Made by a program: the position numbers and the translations under genes
Part shown: in pieces, positions 1 through 50,977 of the stretch
Layout of the letters: each line of letters opens with the position of its first letter
How positions within the stretch are numbered: the stretch's first letter is position 1
Source of the DNA: an uncultured bacterium
GTDB lineage: Bacteria; Cyanobacteriota; Vampirovibrionia; Gastranaerophilales; Gastranaerophilaceae
DNA length: 50,977 nt
Direction: 5' to 3'
NCBI GenBank assembly: GCA_949286705.1
Contig: CASEDF010000009.1
Coordinates: forward strand, 1-50,977
Notes under the pieces: generated by a model
Told to the model about the DNA's origin: nothing
Database searches by the model: none
Seen by the model: only the letters and a program-made list of their open reading frames with translations

Positions 1-177
1 TGCTAAGCCAAAATATGCATCGCTGTTATTTGTTGCATAACGCCACGGGCTTGTTATATCTATAGTTTTTCTTTTCGTCATCATAGGTGCAAATGCCGCC
101 AGTACTATTGTCAATATCAACATGACAACCATCATTTCCGCCAGTGTGAAACCTGCTGATATTTTATTTCTATTCAT
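1..177 (-). CDS. Type IV pilin-like protein, N-terminal fragment
   Basis: This is the first 59 codons of a protein cut by the window edge. The start at 177 follows a GGGGGAT ribosome-binding site about eight bases upstream. The product opens with a short basic leader (MNRNKISAG), then the prepilin motif FTLAEMM and a hydrophobic helix with a basic stop after it (MMTKRK). In known type IV pilins and pseudopilins, prepilin peptidase cuts before the F and the E at +5 guides assembly; both residues are seen here. It is the only pilin-like gene besides 47338-47754 here with a normal short leader and no homopolymer tract. Its length and C-terminal domain are unknown. Confidence 0.8.
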   Translation of the reverse strand, partial: MNRNKISAGFTLAEMMVVMLILTIVLAAFAPMMTKRKTIDITSPWRYATNNSDAYFGLA

Positions 178-1705: not shown

Positions 1706-1738
1706 AAAATTGTTATAAATAATTGGAGGTAAAAACAA

Positions 1739-3055
1739 ATGGTCAAAAATACGTACTATGACTACTTTTTACTCAGGGGGGGGGGCAGTAGTTTAACCTC
1801 CGGTCATGCTGAACTGGTTTCAGCATCTCATAATAAAGAGATTCCGAAACCAGTTCGGAATGACAAATATGTGAGCGAAGCTCACATAAACAACAAACCT
1901 CACTTTACTCACGCAAAACGTGCTGCGTTTACTCTGGCGGAAGGTGCTACGCACACTCCTCGTAATGACATGAATACTTACCCTCTACCTCTGGGAGAGG
2001 GTGGCGCATTGCGCCGGGTGAGGGTTAAAGTGGCTTTCACTCTGGCTGAGGTGTTAATAACCCTCGGCATTATCGGCATTGTTGCTGCCATGACTATTCC
2101 GACACTTGCCGCTAATTACCAGAACAAAACATGGAATACTTCCGCTCAAGTCTTTGAACGGAAACTTGATGAAGCACTTAAAACCATGAACACTCAACAG
2201 GTTCTTGCAGGGTATTCCTCTACTGCGGAATTTGTCGGTGAACTGTCTAAGCACTTCAAAATTAATAAAATTTGCAACAGTGATGAGATTAATTCTTGTT
2301 TTGCAGATAAAATCCACTGGGGCAAAAATGACCTTGAAGTTAGTACCGAAAACGTAAAAACTGCCGCAGGATTAGGGCAACATGACTGGAATAGTGAAGC
2401 TGTAGGGGTGCAATTTGCCAACGGTACTTCCGGTATTATCGCTTACAATCCTGATTGCAGAGAACAACCCTTTACAAATCAATTCACTGGTACAAGCTGT
2501 ATTGCTCTTTTATATGATACCTCCGGCTTTAAGAGCCCGAACAAAGACGGCAAAGATTTGAGATATATCAATGTTACCGAAATTGACGGGCATAAGCCCT
2601 GCTCTTTTGAACTTTCTGACGGTACTTGCTTTACAATACCTTTCAATGCAGATCCGCTTTCTGTAGATGAATGTGAACAAACAAAAGATGAGCTTGGGAT
2701 TCCTCATTGTGATGTTCAAAATAGGCTTTGGGCAGGTTATGCAAAAGTATGTGGAGGTACGAATAAAATGCCCACAATCAACCAACTTGCTGCCTTGGCA
2801 AAAGATTTATACGGAGAAAATGTTGATGGAAATGGTGTGCTATACGCAACTTGGAATCAAGATATTGTTGAAAGGCTAGGTGTTAATACGTCATTAGGAG
2901 GTTTTTATATTTTTGCAGGAGAACCATGTGACACTGATAATCTAGCATACGCACGTAGTTATACTTCATTTGTAACTGGCGGTGGTTGCGTAATGCGGGA
3001 ATCAGATGTTCCTGGAGCATCAGAATCAATGTATGGAGTTTGCATTGCAGATTAA
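1739..3055 (+). CDS. Type IV pilin-like protein with tract- and repeat-filled leader (ON frame)
   Basis: The ORF codes 438 residues. The start at 1739 has a strong GGAGG site ten bases upstream. Codons 13-16 lie in a run of ten G (LLRGGG). The next 80 residues are translated repeat DNA: a 27-base-arm palindrome, a first FTLAE copy near residue 64 that leads nowhere, a CTCGTAATGACA element and a GAGAGGG palindrome. The true prepilin motif, VAFTLAEVLITL, starts near residue 98, followed by the hydrophobic helix (IIGIVAAMTIPTL) and a large Cys-containing globular domain. Its mature N-terminal part is very close to the truncated gene at 50504. A 99-residue leader is far longer than the usual 5-25, so processing is uncertain. 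The role is inferred as a secreted or pilus-tip pseudopilin-like protein; partners are not in the window. Confidence 0.7.
   Translation: MVKNTYYDYFLLRGGGSSLTSGHAELVSASHNKEIPKPVRNDKYVSEAHINNKPHFTHAKRAAFTLAEGATHTPRNDMNTYPLPLGEGGALRRVRVKVAFTLAEVLITLGIIGIVAAMTIPTLAANYQNKTWNTSAQVFERKLDEALKTMNTQQVLAGYSSTAEFVGELSKHFKINKICNSDEINSCFADKIHWGKNDLEVSTENVKTAAGLGQHDWNSEAVGVQFANGTSGIIAYNPDCREQPFTNQFTGTSCIALLYDTSGFKSPNKDGKDLRYINVTEIDGHKPCSFELSDGTCFTIPFNADPLSVDECEQTKDELGIPHCDVQNRLWAGYAKVCGGTNKMPTINQLAALAKDLYGENVDGNGVLYATWNQDIVERLGVNTSLGGFYIFAGEPCDTDNLAYARSYTSFVTGGGCVMRESDVPGASESMYGVCIAD
1776..1785 (+). repeat. G10 homopolymer tract inside the pilin-like gene
   Basis: Ten consecutive G in an AT-rich genome, 12-16 codons after the start codon. 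At this length the downstream prepilin motif is in frame. Tracts of this kind are known sites of slipped-strand mispairing. Related tracts occur at 30438-30446 and 50544-50552. Confidence 0.85.
1803..1864. repeat. Palindromic repeat element inside a coding leader
   Basis: Two 27-base arms (1803-1829 and 1838-1864) are inverted copies with four mismatches around an eight-base loop. The arms begin GTCATGCTGAAC and end GTTCGGAATGAC. It is read in frame as HAELVSASHNKEIPKPVRND. Its form resembles protein-embedded palindromic elements known from other bacteria (for example Rickettsia); the assignment to a family is inference. Confidence 0.7.
1981..2015. repeat. Compound palindrome inside the pilin leader
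   Basis: CCCTCT (1981-1986) pairs with AGAGGG (1996-2001), and GGCGC (2003-2007) pairs with GCGCC (2011-2015). The GGGTGAGGGT that follows recurs in part near 3213 after another palindrome, which suggests one dispersed repeat family. It is translated as PLPLGEGGALRRVRV. Confidence 0.6.
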
Positions 3056-28127: not shown

Positions 28128-29464
28128 AAAAATTCCTAAACCTTTTATTAACACTGGTTCTGACACTATCGGCCGCTAATGCCGCAGGTATTGACAAAGC
28201 AATCTCTGATTCAAGGATTAATAAAGGTGCTGTTTCAATTTCAGTCAGGAATATTAATACCGGCAAAATTTTATATGAACTAAACAGCGATAAGCCGGTT
28301 CCGCCGGCATCCACACTAAAATCAATAACTTTAGCGGCTGCTTTAAATGAACTCGGCAAAGACTACGCTTTTTCCACCGAATTATACAAAAATACAAATA
28401 ACGAATTAATTTTAAAACTTGGAGCAGATCCTTTTTTAAAGGCACGTGATTTAAGGACTCTTTTAAAAACGGCGTATGAAAAAAATATTATTGAACCCAA
28501 AGCTTTCTATCTGGATGATACAATTCTTGATAAGACAGAATGGGGCGAAGGCTGGCAGTGGGATGATGATTTAAATCCGCTTATGCCTAAATTCAGCGCC
28601 TACAATATTGATAATAATCTACTCAAAATAATAGTGGAACCAACAACTAAAGATGCACCGGCACAAATTAAAATGGATGTTTTTTATCCGACAACGTTTG
28701 TAAATTTAGTCACAACAGGCACTTCAAACGATATTAAAATAACAAGGAACAACAATATAGCACCTGATGTTTTAAATATAGAAGGCACGATTTCAAAACG
28801 CGAAGAAAGGGAAATACCGATAAATCATCTTAAAAGATATTTTATTTTAAGACTTGAAGATGCAATTCGTGATGAAAAAATTGAATACTACGGTAATTTT
28901 ACGAATATTAAACTTCCCGAAAAAAACGTATATGAAGTAGCTAAATTTACAACACCTATGGAAAATGCGGTTAACTCAATAATGAAAGACAGCAGCAATA
29001 TGACGGCGGAAACTGTATTTAAAATAGCGGGAGGGCATTATTCAAACAAATCGGGCAGCGCTGAAGATGCCGTTAAAATGCTTTTGGATTACTGCAAACA
29101 ACTCGGCGTAAATACCGATAAAATCAGAATTGTTGACGGAAGCGGCGTTTCAAAAAACAACCTTGTGACATCAGATTTTATGACATCATTTTTAACCGCA
29201 CAGTATAAAAATGATCAGACATATAAAGATATTTTTGCATCAGCCGGAGAAGGAACCTTAAAAAACAGAATGCTGTACTTCAGGCAATATCTTAAAGCAA
29301 AAACAGGAACTCTCTCCGACGTGAGCGCTATTACCGGTTTTCTGACAACATCCAAAGGGACCCCAGTGGCGTTCAATATAATGATAAATGACCCCAATGC
29401 AAAAACTTCAGACAAAAAAATGCTTGAAGAATATATTTTGAGAGCAGTTCATACATCATATTAA
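28124..29464 (+). CDS. dacB: D-alanyl-D-alanine carboxypeptidase/endopeptidase (PBP4, DacB type)
   Basis: The 446 residues begin with a signal peptide (KKFLNLLLTLVLTLSAANA). The penicillin-binding motifs are all visible: SxxK as STLK (near 63-66), SxN as SKN in DGSGVSKNN, and KTG in KAKTGTLSDVS. This fits class C low-mass PBPs that trim or cut peptidoglycan cross-links in the periplasm. It ends the acyltransferase-amidase-dacB operon and overlaps the stop codon of the convergent pilin-like gene by four bases. Confidence 0.9.
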   Translation: MKKFLNLLLTLVLTLSAANAAGIDKAISDSRINKGAVSISVRNINTGKILYELNSDKPVPPASTLKSITLAAALNELGKDYAFSTELYKNTNNELILKLGADPFLKARDLRTLLKTAYEKNIIEPKAFYLDDTILDKTEWGEGWQWDDDLNPLMPKFSAYNIDNNLLKIIVEPTTKDAPAQIKMDVFYPTTFVNLVTTGTSNDIKITRNNNIAPDVLNIEGTISKREEREIPINHLKRYFILRLEDAIRDEKIEYYGNFTNIKLPEKNVYEVAKFTTPMENAVNSIMKDSSNMTAETVFKIAGGHYSNKSGSAEDAVKMLLDYCKQLGVNTDKIRIVDGSGVSKNNLVTSDFMTSFLTAQYKNDQTYKDIFASAGEGTLKNRMLYFRQYLKAKTGTLSDVSAITGFLTTSKGTPVAFNIMINDPNAKTSDKKMLEEYILRAVHTSY

Positions 29465-30473
29465 TCATTACAGCTTCGTGCTTTGTCCCATCCGAGTTTT
29501 TCAGGGCAATGGAGATAATCCATATTGCCGTTATATATTACCCATGCAGCACATTTGCCGCCGCCATGCTCATATACACGGGCTCCCAGACATTGATTCT
29601 CAAACTTGTCTGTCCATATAGTCTCGTTTGCAGAACCTGCAGGCATCAAACCGTCCGTATAGACATAAAAATCAAAAGCATCTATATTCAATGTGTTTTT
29701 CCCATGGATTCCATCAATATCAATAAGAATACTCCCGCAAGAAAGTCCATAAGAGCCATACTCTATATTATTATCCGATAACGAAGTCATAGCCATATTC
29801 TGGGTGCAGTTGCCGCCTATAGGCGACACCCTGAAACTCGCCCCGTTTTTTAGAACATATGAATTATTTACTCCGTTAAAACCAGCCTGTAAATTGCTGT
29901 TATACAGGTTTTTATATTTGCTCGGCAAACATCCTTTAGCAACTTTTTCACATTTTTTTAGTAGCTGTACATATTCAGGCAAAAGCGTCTCAAATTTTGA
30001 CATACGAGCATCGTTAGAAGCTCCCCACATGTTAACATTACCTTCATTAACTATCATAAGCCTTATAGCTTCATTCAGGATACTATAAGTTTCCTTTAAC
30101 TTTGTAACGGTCTGCTTTTCGGTATAATTACCGATAAGAGTCGGCATTGTCATGGCTGCAACAATGCCGATTATTGCCAATGTTATTAGGACTTCGGCGA
30201 GCGTGAAGGCGGCTTTTTTAACGTAAATAGCTTGAGTGAAGTGAGTTGAGTAAAGCTTTCTGTCGGCATAGTAATGCCGACCTACATTTCTGTTACTTCT
30301 TAGTGCCTTAGTATCATAGTATCTTAGTATCTTTTCCCAAAATATACCGCCCAAACCCTTGTTAACTTCATGATCCGTTAAATTTTCTCCAACTTCCTGT
30401 TGGTCGGGTCCGGCGGCACGCCGGCTTAGAGGAGTCGCCCCCCCCCGAGATTCTCTTTTTTCATATTTTTCAC
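29461..30473 (-). CDS. Type IV pilin-like protein, out of frame at a G9 tract (OFF state)
   Basis: A GTG at 30473, with AAGGAG seven bases upstream, begins the peptide VKNMKKENLGGGRLL and hits TAA right after a run of nine G (30446-30438). With one more G the frame continues open through about 80 codons of repeat DNA to KKAAFTLAEVLITLAIIGIV (near 30215-30160) and on to the stop at 29461. A TTG at 30354 is the first start codon of the downstream frame but has no ribosome-binding site. The mature part has a typical pilin helix and a Cys-bearing domain that ends CPEKLGWDKARSCND. The length of 1013 bases is not a multiple of three, in line with a one-base shift. It may be a phase-variable gene, or an assembly error in the tract. 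Confidence 0.7.
30262..30281. repeat. Palindrome GTCGGCAT-AGTA-ATGCCGAC
   Basis: Perfect 8-base arms (30262-30269, 30274-30281) in the leader of the pilin-like gene, read in frame as GRHYYADR. Similar in outer bases and length to 3101-3119. Confidence 0.65.
30410..30424. repeat. GC-rich palindrome CCGGCG-GCA-CGCCGG
   Basis: Perfect 6-base arms, far richer in GC than the surroundings, in the leader 14 bases from the homopolymer tract. It looks like a REP-type element. Confidence 0.6.
30438..30446 (-). repeat. G9 (C9 on plus strand) homopolymer tract
   Basis: Nine G in the reading direction of the pilin-like gene. Flanks on the plus strand read AGTCG-tract-GAGATT, identical to those at 50544-50552 although the two host genes run in opposite directions, so the tract belongs to a movable repeat. 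Confidence 0.85.
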
Positions 30474-30574
30474 CGCGATTCTCCTTTTTAATAAAAATAA
30501 CACATTTTATAATTTATTGCAAGAAAGTTAAATTTAATAAATTTTTACAATTAGAAAATCTGAACAACTTATGC

Positions 30575-50481: not shown

Positions 50482-50503
50482 AAAAGAAAAAAGGAGATTA
50501 GAT

Positions 50504-50977
50504 ATGTTGAAAAAGGTTGTGCAAAAAGCGGTTCAGATAGTCGCCCCCCCCCGAGATTATCACTATATAAGGGTTTCATCTTAACAAAAAGTGCTGCACG
50601 CACTCCTCGTAATGACAAACCTCACGCTACTCACTTCACTCACTTGACTCACGCAAAACGTGCTGCCTTTACTCTTGCAGAAGTCTTAATTACCCTCGCA
50701 ATTATCGGCATTGTGGCGGCTATGACCATTCCAACGCTTGTCGCTAATTACCAGAATAAAGCCTGGAATACTTCTGCTCAAGTCTTTGAAAGAAAACTTG
50801 AAGAAGCTCTCAAAACTATGAATACTCAACAGGTTCTTGCTGGTTACTCCTCTACTGCCGATTTCGTCGGGGCGTTAGGCAAATATTTCAAAATTACTAA
50901 AATCTGCTCCAATGATGATATCATGTCCTGTTTTGAAGACAAAGTTCGTTGGGGGAAAAATGAACTCGAAGTCAGTA
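50504..50977 (+). CDS. Type IV pilin-like protein, out of frame at a C9 tract (OFF state), cut by window end
   Basis: The ATG at 50504 (AAGGAG upstream) begins MLKKVVQKAVQIVAPP. After nine C the frame turns into RDYHYIRVSS and stops at 50582-50584. With one more C the frame is open with no stop from the tract through 38 codons to THAKRAAFTLAEVLITLAI and to the end of the window. The mature part is very close to that of 1739-3055 (both have QVFERKL-EALKTMNTQQVL and LAGYSSTA). The leader between tract and motif carries the same TPRND and THAKRAAFTLAE blocks as 1739. The complete gene lies beyond the window. Confidence 0.72.
50544..50552 (+). repeat. C9 homopolymer tract inside the pilin-like gene
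   Basis: Nine C, 13 codons after the start codon. Flanks AGTCG and GAGATT are identical to the plus-strand flanks at 30438-30446. One extra base would restore the frame. Confidence 0.85.

Follow-up and report, generated by a model that had tools for sequence, protein, structure and literature searches.

In Neisseria, pilin sequence is varied at a single expressed locus, pilE, that copies from silent partial genes (pilS), and the repeats of opa and pilC are placed in the signal-peptide region. In Campylobacter and Bordetella, poly-G/C tracts are spread over many unrelated surface genes or promoters. In the Neisseria literature drawn on here, opa comprises about 11 genes for phase-variable outer membrane proteins, with repeats in the coding sequence, while pilC carries a poly-G/C tract within its reading frame (PMC5953494, PMC11868660), and one of these sources gives averages of 15-19 poly-G tracts per genome for N. 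meningitidis, N. gonorrhoeae and N. lactamica (PMC5953494). Two further reports describe the Rickettsia palindromic elements (RPE), short palindromic repeats lying in frame inside protein genes (PMC2229807), and prepilin leaders of 6-26 residues (PMC4471445). In a literature search for which most subscription journals and preprints were outside reach, we found no report of phase variation or pilin expansion in the Gastranaerophilales.

The stretch of DNA analysed here (the window; 50,977 nt) is an entire contig, C9, of a 1.85 Mb genome in 41 contigs that is probably a MAG. Its prolyl-tRNA synthetase shares 99% identity with that of the Candidatus Gastranaerophilales bacterium BRZ_BN bin58 MAG (G011 below, matched to it by tract coordinates) and 88% with that of Candidatus Scatousia excrementipullorum, and by sequence the host appears to be a gut member of the non-photosynthetic Gastranaerophilales; the named relatives compared are themselves MAGs. 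A sequence-only reading of the window had drawn attention to the 20-mer AGTCG-C9-GAGATT as a movable repeat, present in both orientations, that would hand phase variation to any gene it entered. The 20-mer does occur exactly, with nine C's each time, at 30433-30452 and 50539-50558 (two matches in the window versus none in 100 of 100 dinucleotide shuffles), and the host genes do run in opposite directions, so that one run reads as poly-G on the minus strand (30438..30446) and the other as poly-C on the plus strand (50544..50552). The flank common to the pair is short, extension of the repeat stopping at 23 nt with 96% identity. At the window pilin, the copy inspected, neither terminal inverted repeats nor a target duplication bounding the tract was seen. 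Both tracts sit in the first codons of genes with the prepilin motif FTLAEVLITL farther downstream, and the pair consists of one class A gene and one class B gene in the scheme given below. A third tract, absent from that reading, is the G10 run at 1776-1785 in ORF 1739-3055, which has another flank. The features of the window are as follows, ON and OFF giving the frame as assembled.

30438..30446, minus strand: class A tract, G9 as read in the gene; OFF, needing one more base for the pilin frame
30447..30487, minus strand: class A pilin start region, with Shine-Dalgarno AAGGAG at about 30481-30487 and two starts, GTG 30473 (27 nt before the tract) and ATG 30464 (18 nt before it)
30208..30437, minus strand: class A leader from tract to prepilin motif, a mosaic with the pilin frame open and with parts that recur at other pilin loci
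29461..30207, minus strand: class A pilin body, FTLAEVLITL..., 248 aa plus stop, with N-terminal N_methyl and IV_pilin_GFxxxE motifs
50544..50552, plus strand: class B tract, C9 as read in the gene; OFF, needing one more base for the pilin frame
50490..50543, plus strand: class B start region, with Shine-Dalgarno AAAGGAG and ATG 50504, 40 nt before the tract; MLKKVVQKAVQIV
50553..50667, plus strand: class B leader from tract to motif, pilin frame open
50668..50977, plus strand: class B pilin body, cut by the contig end (50977)
1776..1785, plus strand: class C tract, G10, in frame, ON
1739..3055, plus strand: class C putatively phase-variable pilin gene, with ATG 37 nt before the tract and the prepilin motif from 2036
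1809..1823, plus strand: palindromic repeat CTGAAN3GTTTCAG within the class C leader, one of 33 copies in the genome

Over 103 aa, the class B body (50668..50977) shares 99% identity with a pilin that stands behind a class C leader on contig C13, and gene 1739..3055 has 80% DNA identity over 313 nt to the gene at 50665. A search of named genomes with the window pilin found no relative.

Across the genome, the relaxed motif GTCG-C(n)-GAGA has eight copies (reversed control, none), so it is not confined to the two window loci. All eight lie near gene starts, in the translated leaders of type IV prepilin-like genes, five reading as G and three as C, and they belong to a set of about 60 pilin-leader tracts. 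We fetched the surroundings of all 67 runs of G or C of at least 8 bases; 55 have one of the 85 prepilin motifs less than 900 nt downstream in the sense direction, and the zone so defined makes up 4.1% of the genome (enrichment P 3e-64). Both senses relative to the gene, as the sequence-only reading had it, are represented among these 55 pairs (49 G-sense, 6 C-sense). The other 12 tracts comprise two in pilins without the motif segment (L075 and L082, which have lost FTLAEVLI), two class A flanks cut by contig ends, two in polysaccharide pyruvyl transferases, one in a GT-D glycosyltransferase, three with no clear gene around them and two that together make up a single low-complexity stretch. 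The three non-pilin genes (L051, C2:94825; L084, C12:7159; L073, C6:46596) carry flanks that differ from those of the pilin tracts, and their tracts suggest that surface sugars may be phase-variable too. Prepilin-like genes are cut by ends of contigs C5, C8, C13, C15, C18 and C21, and of the window (1-159 and 50668-50977). The N-terminal stretch that these genes have in common is the probable cause of the assembly breaks, and the pilin count is therefore likely to be too low.

The products have the class III signal motif with Glu5 and the hydrophobic stretch of type IV prepilins, with 85 N_methyl matches in the genome (70 over the cut-off) and 82 matches to TIGR02532; a profile search against PDB structures matched the pilin N-terminal part only. 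Their bodies are full-length; an alignment of 26 of them has 18 invariant columns at the N-terminus, and 7 of the 26 match Pfam DUF6613. A single-sequence structure prediction for the window pilin was of low confidence (mean pLDDT 42.7) and was not used. Position -1, usually Gly in type IV prepilins, is Ala in 52 of 56 cases and Gly in 4, and 40 of the 46 tract-bearing leaders measured exceed 26 aa (median 99, maximum 189). Because of these long leaders and the Ala at -1 we word the family "prepilin-like", and both features count against the switch model set out below. The genome has one prepilin peptidase gene (PF06750 match, E 3.2e-35), whose product may remove the long leader; cleavage, assembly into filaments and a role at the cell surface would be expected of such pilins.

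The leaders fall into classes with fixed distances between start and tract. Class A consists of the Shine-Dalgarno sequence AAGGAG, a start, a spacer of in most cases 27 nt (32 loci) or 18 nt (6 loci), G9 and CGACTCYYCTA, an ATG lying at one or other distance at 38 of 42 loci. Class B has a start, then 40 or 37 nt, and TTCAGATAGTCG-C9-GA, with an ATG at one of these distances at all seven loci; class C has its start about 37 nt ahead of G10-CAGTAGCTTAACCTCC. A fourth form, class D, is present at two loci (L041, L042) and has no open path to the pilin. Classes of opposite sense share about 11 flanking bases. At some loci (L066, L067, L068, L060, L099; window 1915-2060) the leader contains a second AFTLAE motif, for example AFTLAECATHVDMSDNIRRVAFTLAEVLI, a pattern that would suit the joining of two leaders at that motif. 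An inverted copy, TTAACCTCC, of the class C Shine-Dalgarno stretch (GGAGGTTAA at several loci) follows directly 3' of the tract (L039, L068, L085, L088; window 1725-1805). A comparable Shine-Dalgarno hairpin, suggested in class A by CTCTCCT after the tract, was rejected at 42 loci (predicted pairing 0.40 vs 0.40), as was one in class B at seven loci (0.54 vs 0.53).

From tract to motif the distance varies from 22 to 691 nt. In the 50 of 56 leaders that could be tested (those below 60 nt were left out), the pilin frame is stop-free in 42 and either other frame in none; counted by frame, there are 42 stops in 4767 codons of the pilin frame versus 340 in 4752 and 457 in 4762 (P 7e-94). The tract is a homopolymer of the hypermutable type inside a reading frame and near its start, and a one-unit change toggles, by translation, between a full-length and a truncated product. 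For 48 of the 56 tract-pilin pairs, translation joins start and pilin at a tract length within one base of that assembled; the other eight, class D included, have no open path to the pilin and count against the switch model. As assembled, 8 of the 48 are ON and 40 OFF, mostly at nine bases (binomial P 0.008, a figure that treats the loci as independent, which they are not). The predominance of nine bases, OFF, is stranger for free switching than a spread of lengths would be. The position of the tract, its fixed spacing, the single open frame, the differences in length and the replacement of the payload described below can all be read from the assembled sequences.

Our favoured interpretation, in which we have considerable confidence, is that the tract switches translation ON or OFF from within the leaders of a type IV prepilin-like family that has expanded greatly and whose bodies are subject to replacement, and the tract data would fit the phase variation that the sequence-only reading proposed. 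Translation would begin 18-40 nt ahead of some nine consecutive G or C bases, and replication slippage in this run would decide whether the prepilin behind it is read in frame. The tract would remain at a fixed chromosomal site together with the promoter and the start codon, the remaining leader and pilin body would be replaced by recombination between strains, and now and then a whole promoter-leader unit or a whole gene would be replaced, gained or lost. Such replacement of bodies, leaders and genes would be the reason that related bodies stand behind different leader classes (G-sense A and C, C-sense B). We infer replication slippage as the cause, heritable switching in cells as the outcome and recombination as the route.

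Some slipping of polymerase or ribosome is expected at homopolymer runs such as G9 and C9. If RNA polymerase or the ribosome slipped there steadily, the result would be a low, constant level of pilin with no heritable switch, and the 36 of 48 tracts that have nine bases and are one short of frame (30 class A, 6 class B) look as if this were a preferred length. Against steady slippage, the length of the tract is not constant: it differs at 7 of the 19 sites syntenic with G011, is G10, G9 and G11 in three other species whose class C leaders at the site next to the NFACT gene are otherwise almost the same, and ranges from 7 to 14 in pilin leaders across relatives. We regard steady slippage as unlikely.

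The association of tracts with pilins extends well beyond this genome. This genome has 63 tracts of G9 or longer. Across 36 genomes of the GTDB family the count ranges from 0 to 115, with a median of 36.5, and 23 relatives from other families have between 0 and 6 (median 2). The number of tracts follows that of prepilin motifs within the family (rho 0.82 for the 36 genomes; 0.85 with one genome per genus, n=21), and outside it rho is -0.41. In G039, from another GTDB family, the pilins are expanded but lack the switch (87 prepilin motifs, no G9 tract). The class A flank occurs in 10 of the 16 genomes of the genus and in none of the 43 others. Individual loci in relatives were sampled: 20 class B places, and 10 G9 places each, of the many counted, in G024 and G029. 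Seven of the 10 tracts sampled in G024, from another genus, are in pilin leaders, which have a distinct form and G12-G14. Six loci of G029 (L321, L322, L324, L325, L326, L328), from a sister genus, show the tract GGACAA-G9/10-TAAACCGCTCA hundreds of nt before a pilin, with the tract frame ending earlier; the pilin has its own downstream start, and the simple leader model therefore fails there. Taken over these genomes, a large and putatively phase-variable pilin repertoire appears to be common to the GTDB family.

The downstream start in G029 raises the possibility that pilins here also begin near FTLAEVLI, the long leaders being untranslated and the tract affecting only transcription or mRNA folding. 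Leaders longer than known prepilin leaders would be in keeping with this arrangement, as would class C, where the Shine-Dalgarno sequence is predicted to pair with the stretch after the tract (0.96 versus 0.71 with a shuffled flank; P<0.05 at 4 of 5 loci) and so to be hidden. Against an internal start, which we judge improbable, stand the strong frame-specific depletion of stops through leaders of up to 189 aa and the absence of this pairing effect from the 42 class A and 7 class B loci.

Comparison of syntenic sites provides a view of which parts stay and which are exchanged. With G011, 30 of its 48 tract loci plus L243 and L262 were compared, giving 19 syntenic pairs. The tract class, judged by eye on the flanking sequence, is the same at all 19. 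Upstream identity is 80-99% and reaches the tract or passes through it, ending about 30 nt before the tract at two sites and at least 11 nt past it elsewhere. At 14 of the 17 sites where the body could be judged it has been replaced, with 30-59% identity over the aligned part; the remaining two bodies (L065, L098) are cut by contig ends and were excluded. At many of these sites identity resumes around the stop codon. In 18 further pairs from other species of the genus (G011 left out, and drawn from loci already collected rather than from every tract of those genomes), class is kept at 17 of 18 and the body, by a similar measure, replaced at 10 of 15. The exception in class, L088 compared with G004, keeps its body (84%) and upstream gene and differs in its whole promoter and leader: about 340 nt have been replaced, giving class C with G10 in one genome and class B with C9 in the other. 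Opposite tract orientation would thus appear to arise by exchange of a promoter-leader unit. Few G011 bodies (4 of 29) have a match of at least 85% among the 63 compared, and this scarcity of close matches indicates a donor pool wider than this genome.

Two individual sites illustrate the same turnover. Between dacB and a glycosyltransferase, no pilin is present in G009, G006 and G012, and other pilins occupy the place in three further genomes, a G9 tract being present in two of the three. At the NFACT site, compared across 14 other genomes of the genus, class B leaders have a full tract in G012, an interrupted one in G004 and none in G011; class C leaders are present in G009, G010, G002 and G006; G013 has a plain short-leader pilin without a tract; and in the remaining genomes the pilin was not found or the contig ended. 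The site comparisons indicate that the units coming and going are genes, bodies and promoter-leaders, and that the tract itself does not hop.

These comparisons bear directly on the proposal that a small mobile repeat carries the tract, inserts either way round and makes any gene it enters phase-variable. Such a repeat could account for the eight GTCG-C(n)-GAGA copies in both senses and for the many leaders that hold repeats in both orientations: sequence in common with another leader is found in 49 of 51 leaders directly and in 34 of 51 inverted, as compared with 17 of 56 and 0 of 56 for upstream regions and 4 of 49 and 0 of 49 for downstream regions. It could also account for the resemblance of the antisense class B flank to G-sense flanks (P 0.013-0.020 over 12, 16 and 20 nt against a profile of 85; best single match 13/16, P 0.0014). 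On the side before the tract that flank scores above all 2000 shuffles, a score that we think is driven by the C next to the run. These values hint at a remote inverted kinship of the class A and B flanks; we do not claim that the C-sense class arose when a tract was inverted, flank support for this being weak, and among the syntenic pairs no inverted tract was found.

Several observations run against a discrete movable repeat. The spacing from start to tract is fixed and class persists at syntenic sites; the one gene with opposite senses has exchanged promoter plus leader; and the empty sites in relatives are gene-sized, none being tract-sized with insert-like bounds. Nor is phase variation handed to just any gene, nearly all tracts lying within one gene family and the two pyruvyl transferases and the GT-D glycosyltransferase having flanks of their own. 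None of the eight GTCG-C(n)-GAGA copies is inserted in an unrelated gene or intergenic site. We regard a mobile tract as very improbable. What holds of the idea is that repeats of both orientations do occupy the leaders beside the tract; the repeat is simply not the tract. Its true core is the palindrome CTGAAN3GTTTCAG, with 33 genome copies (reversed control, none), 16 of them, eight per direction, in 49 leaders that make up 0.75% of the genome, a distribution suggesting that the palindrome may be mobile. Similarly remote is the view that the tract genes are decaying copies with fixed frameshifts and leaders made of repeat debris, which would suit the 40 of 48 OFF, the 8 of 56 without an open path and the loss of FTLAEVLI in L075 and L082, but would not keep 42 of 50 leaders open in the one useful frame and none in another, full-length bodies with 18 invariant columns, or sites that persist across species.

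Returning to the translational switch, we offer tentatively, with nearly as much belief as doubt, a wider reading in which the family as a whole runs a two-layer diversity machine. Dozens of mostly-OFF, stationary switches would serve as landing sites for pilin bodies exchanged between strains, each cell would display a different small subset of a repertoire common to the population, and the leader would be both a refuge for palindromes and homology for exchange; because it would be cut off, it would be free of structural constraint. If so, the Gastranaerophilales, an uncultured gut group related to cyanobacteria, carry one of the larger phase-variable surface repertoires known to us and provide a natural system for the separate evolution of switch and payload. 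There is also a warning for annotation: in an assembly most tract pilin genes give the impression of being broken or undersized, and contigs come to an end in them.

As far as the sources drawn on describe them, the known systems each share part of this arrangement. Like Neisseria opa, it is a scattered family of surface protein genes, each putatively switched by an in-frame repeat tract, and like pilC it is pilus-linked with a G/C tract. Unlike either, the tract is in the leader of the pilin-like subunit itself, in an uncultured gut bacterium of a different phylum, with a mosaic leader and exchange of payload at stationary sites; and in place of the Neisseria averages of 15-19, there are 63 tracts of at least 9 bases here and up to 115 in a family member. 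As in pilE/pilS, pilin sequence would be varied by recombination behind a fixed expression start, but here there are dozens of full genes, every one with its own start and switch, exchange appears to be between genomes at the same site, and loci share little 3' homology (4/49). The in-frame palindrome in pilin leaders resembles RPE and other MITE-like in-frame repeats, with the difference that CTGAAN3GTTTCAG gathers in one kind of place, the pilin leader. Finally, the switch by homopolymer slippage would be that of the poly-G/C contingency loci of Campylobacter and Bordetella, except that the tracts here are nearly all in one paralogous family.
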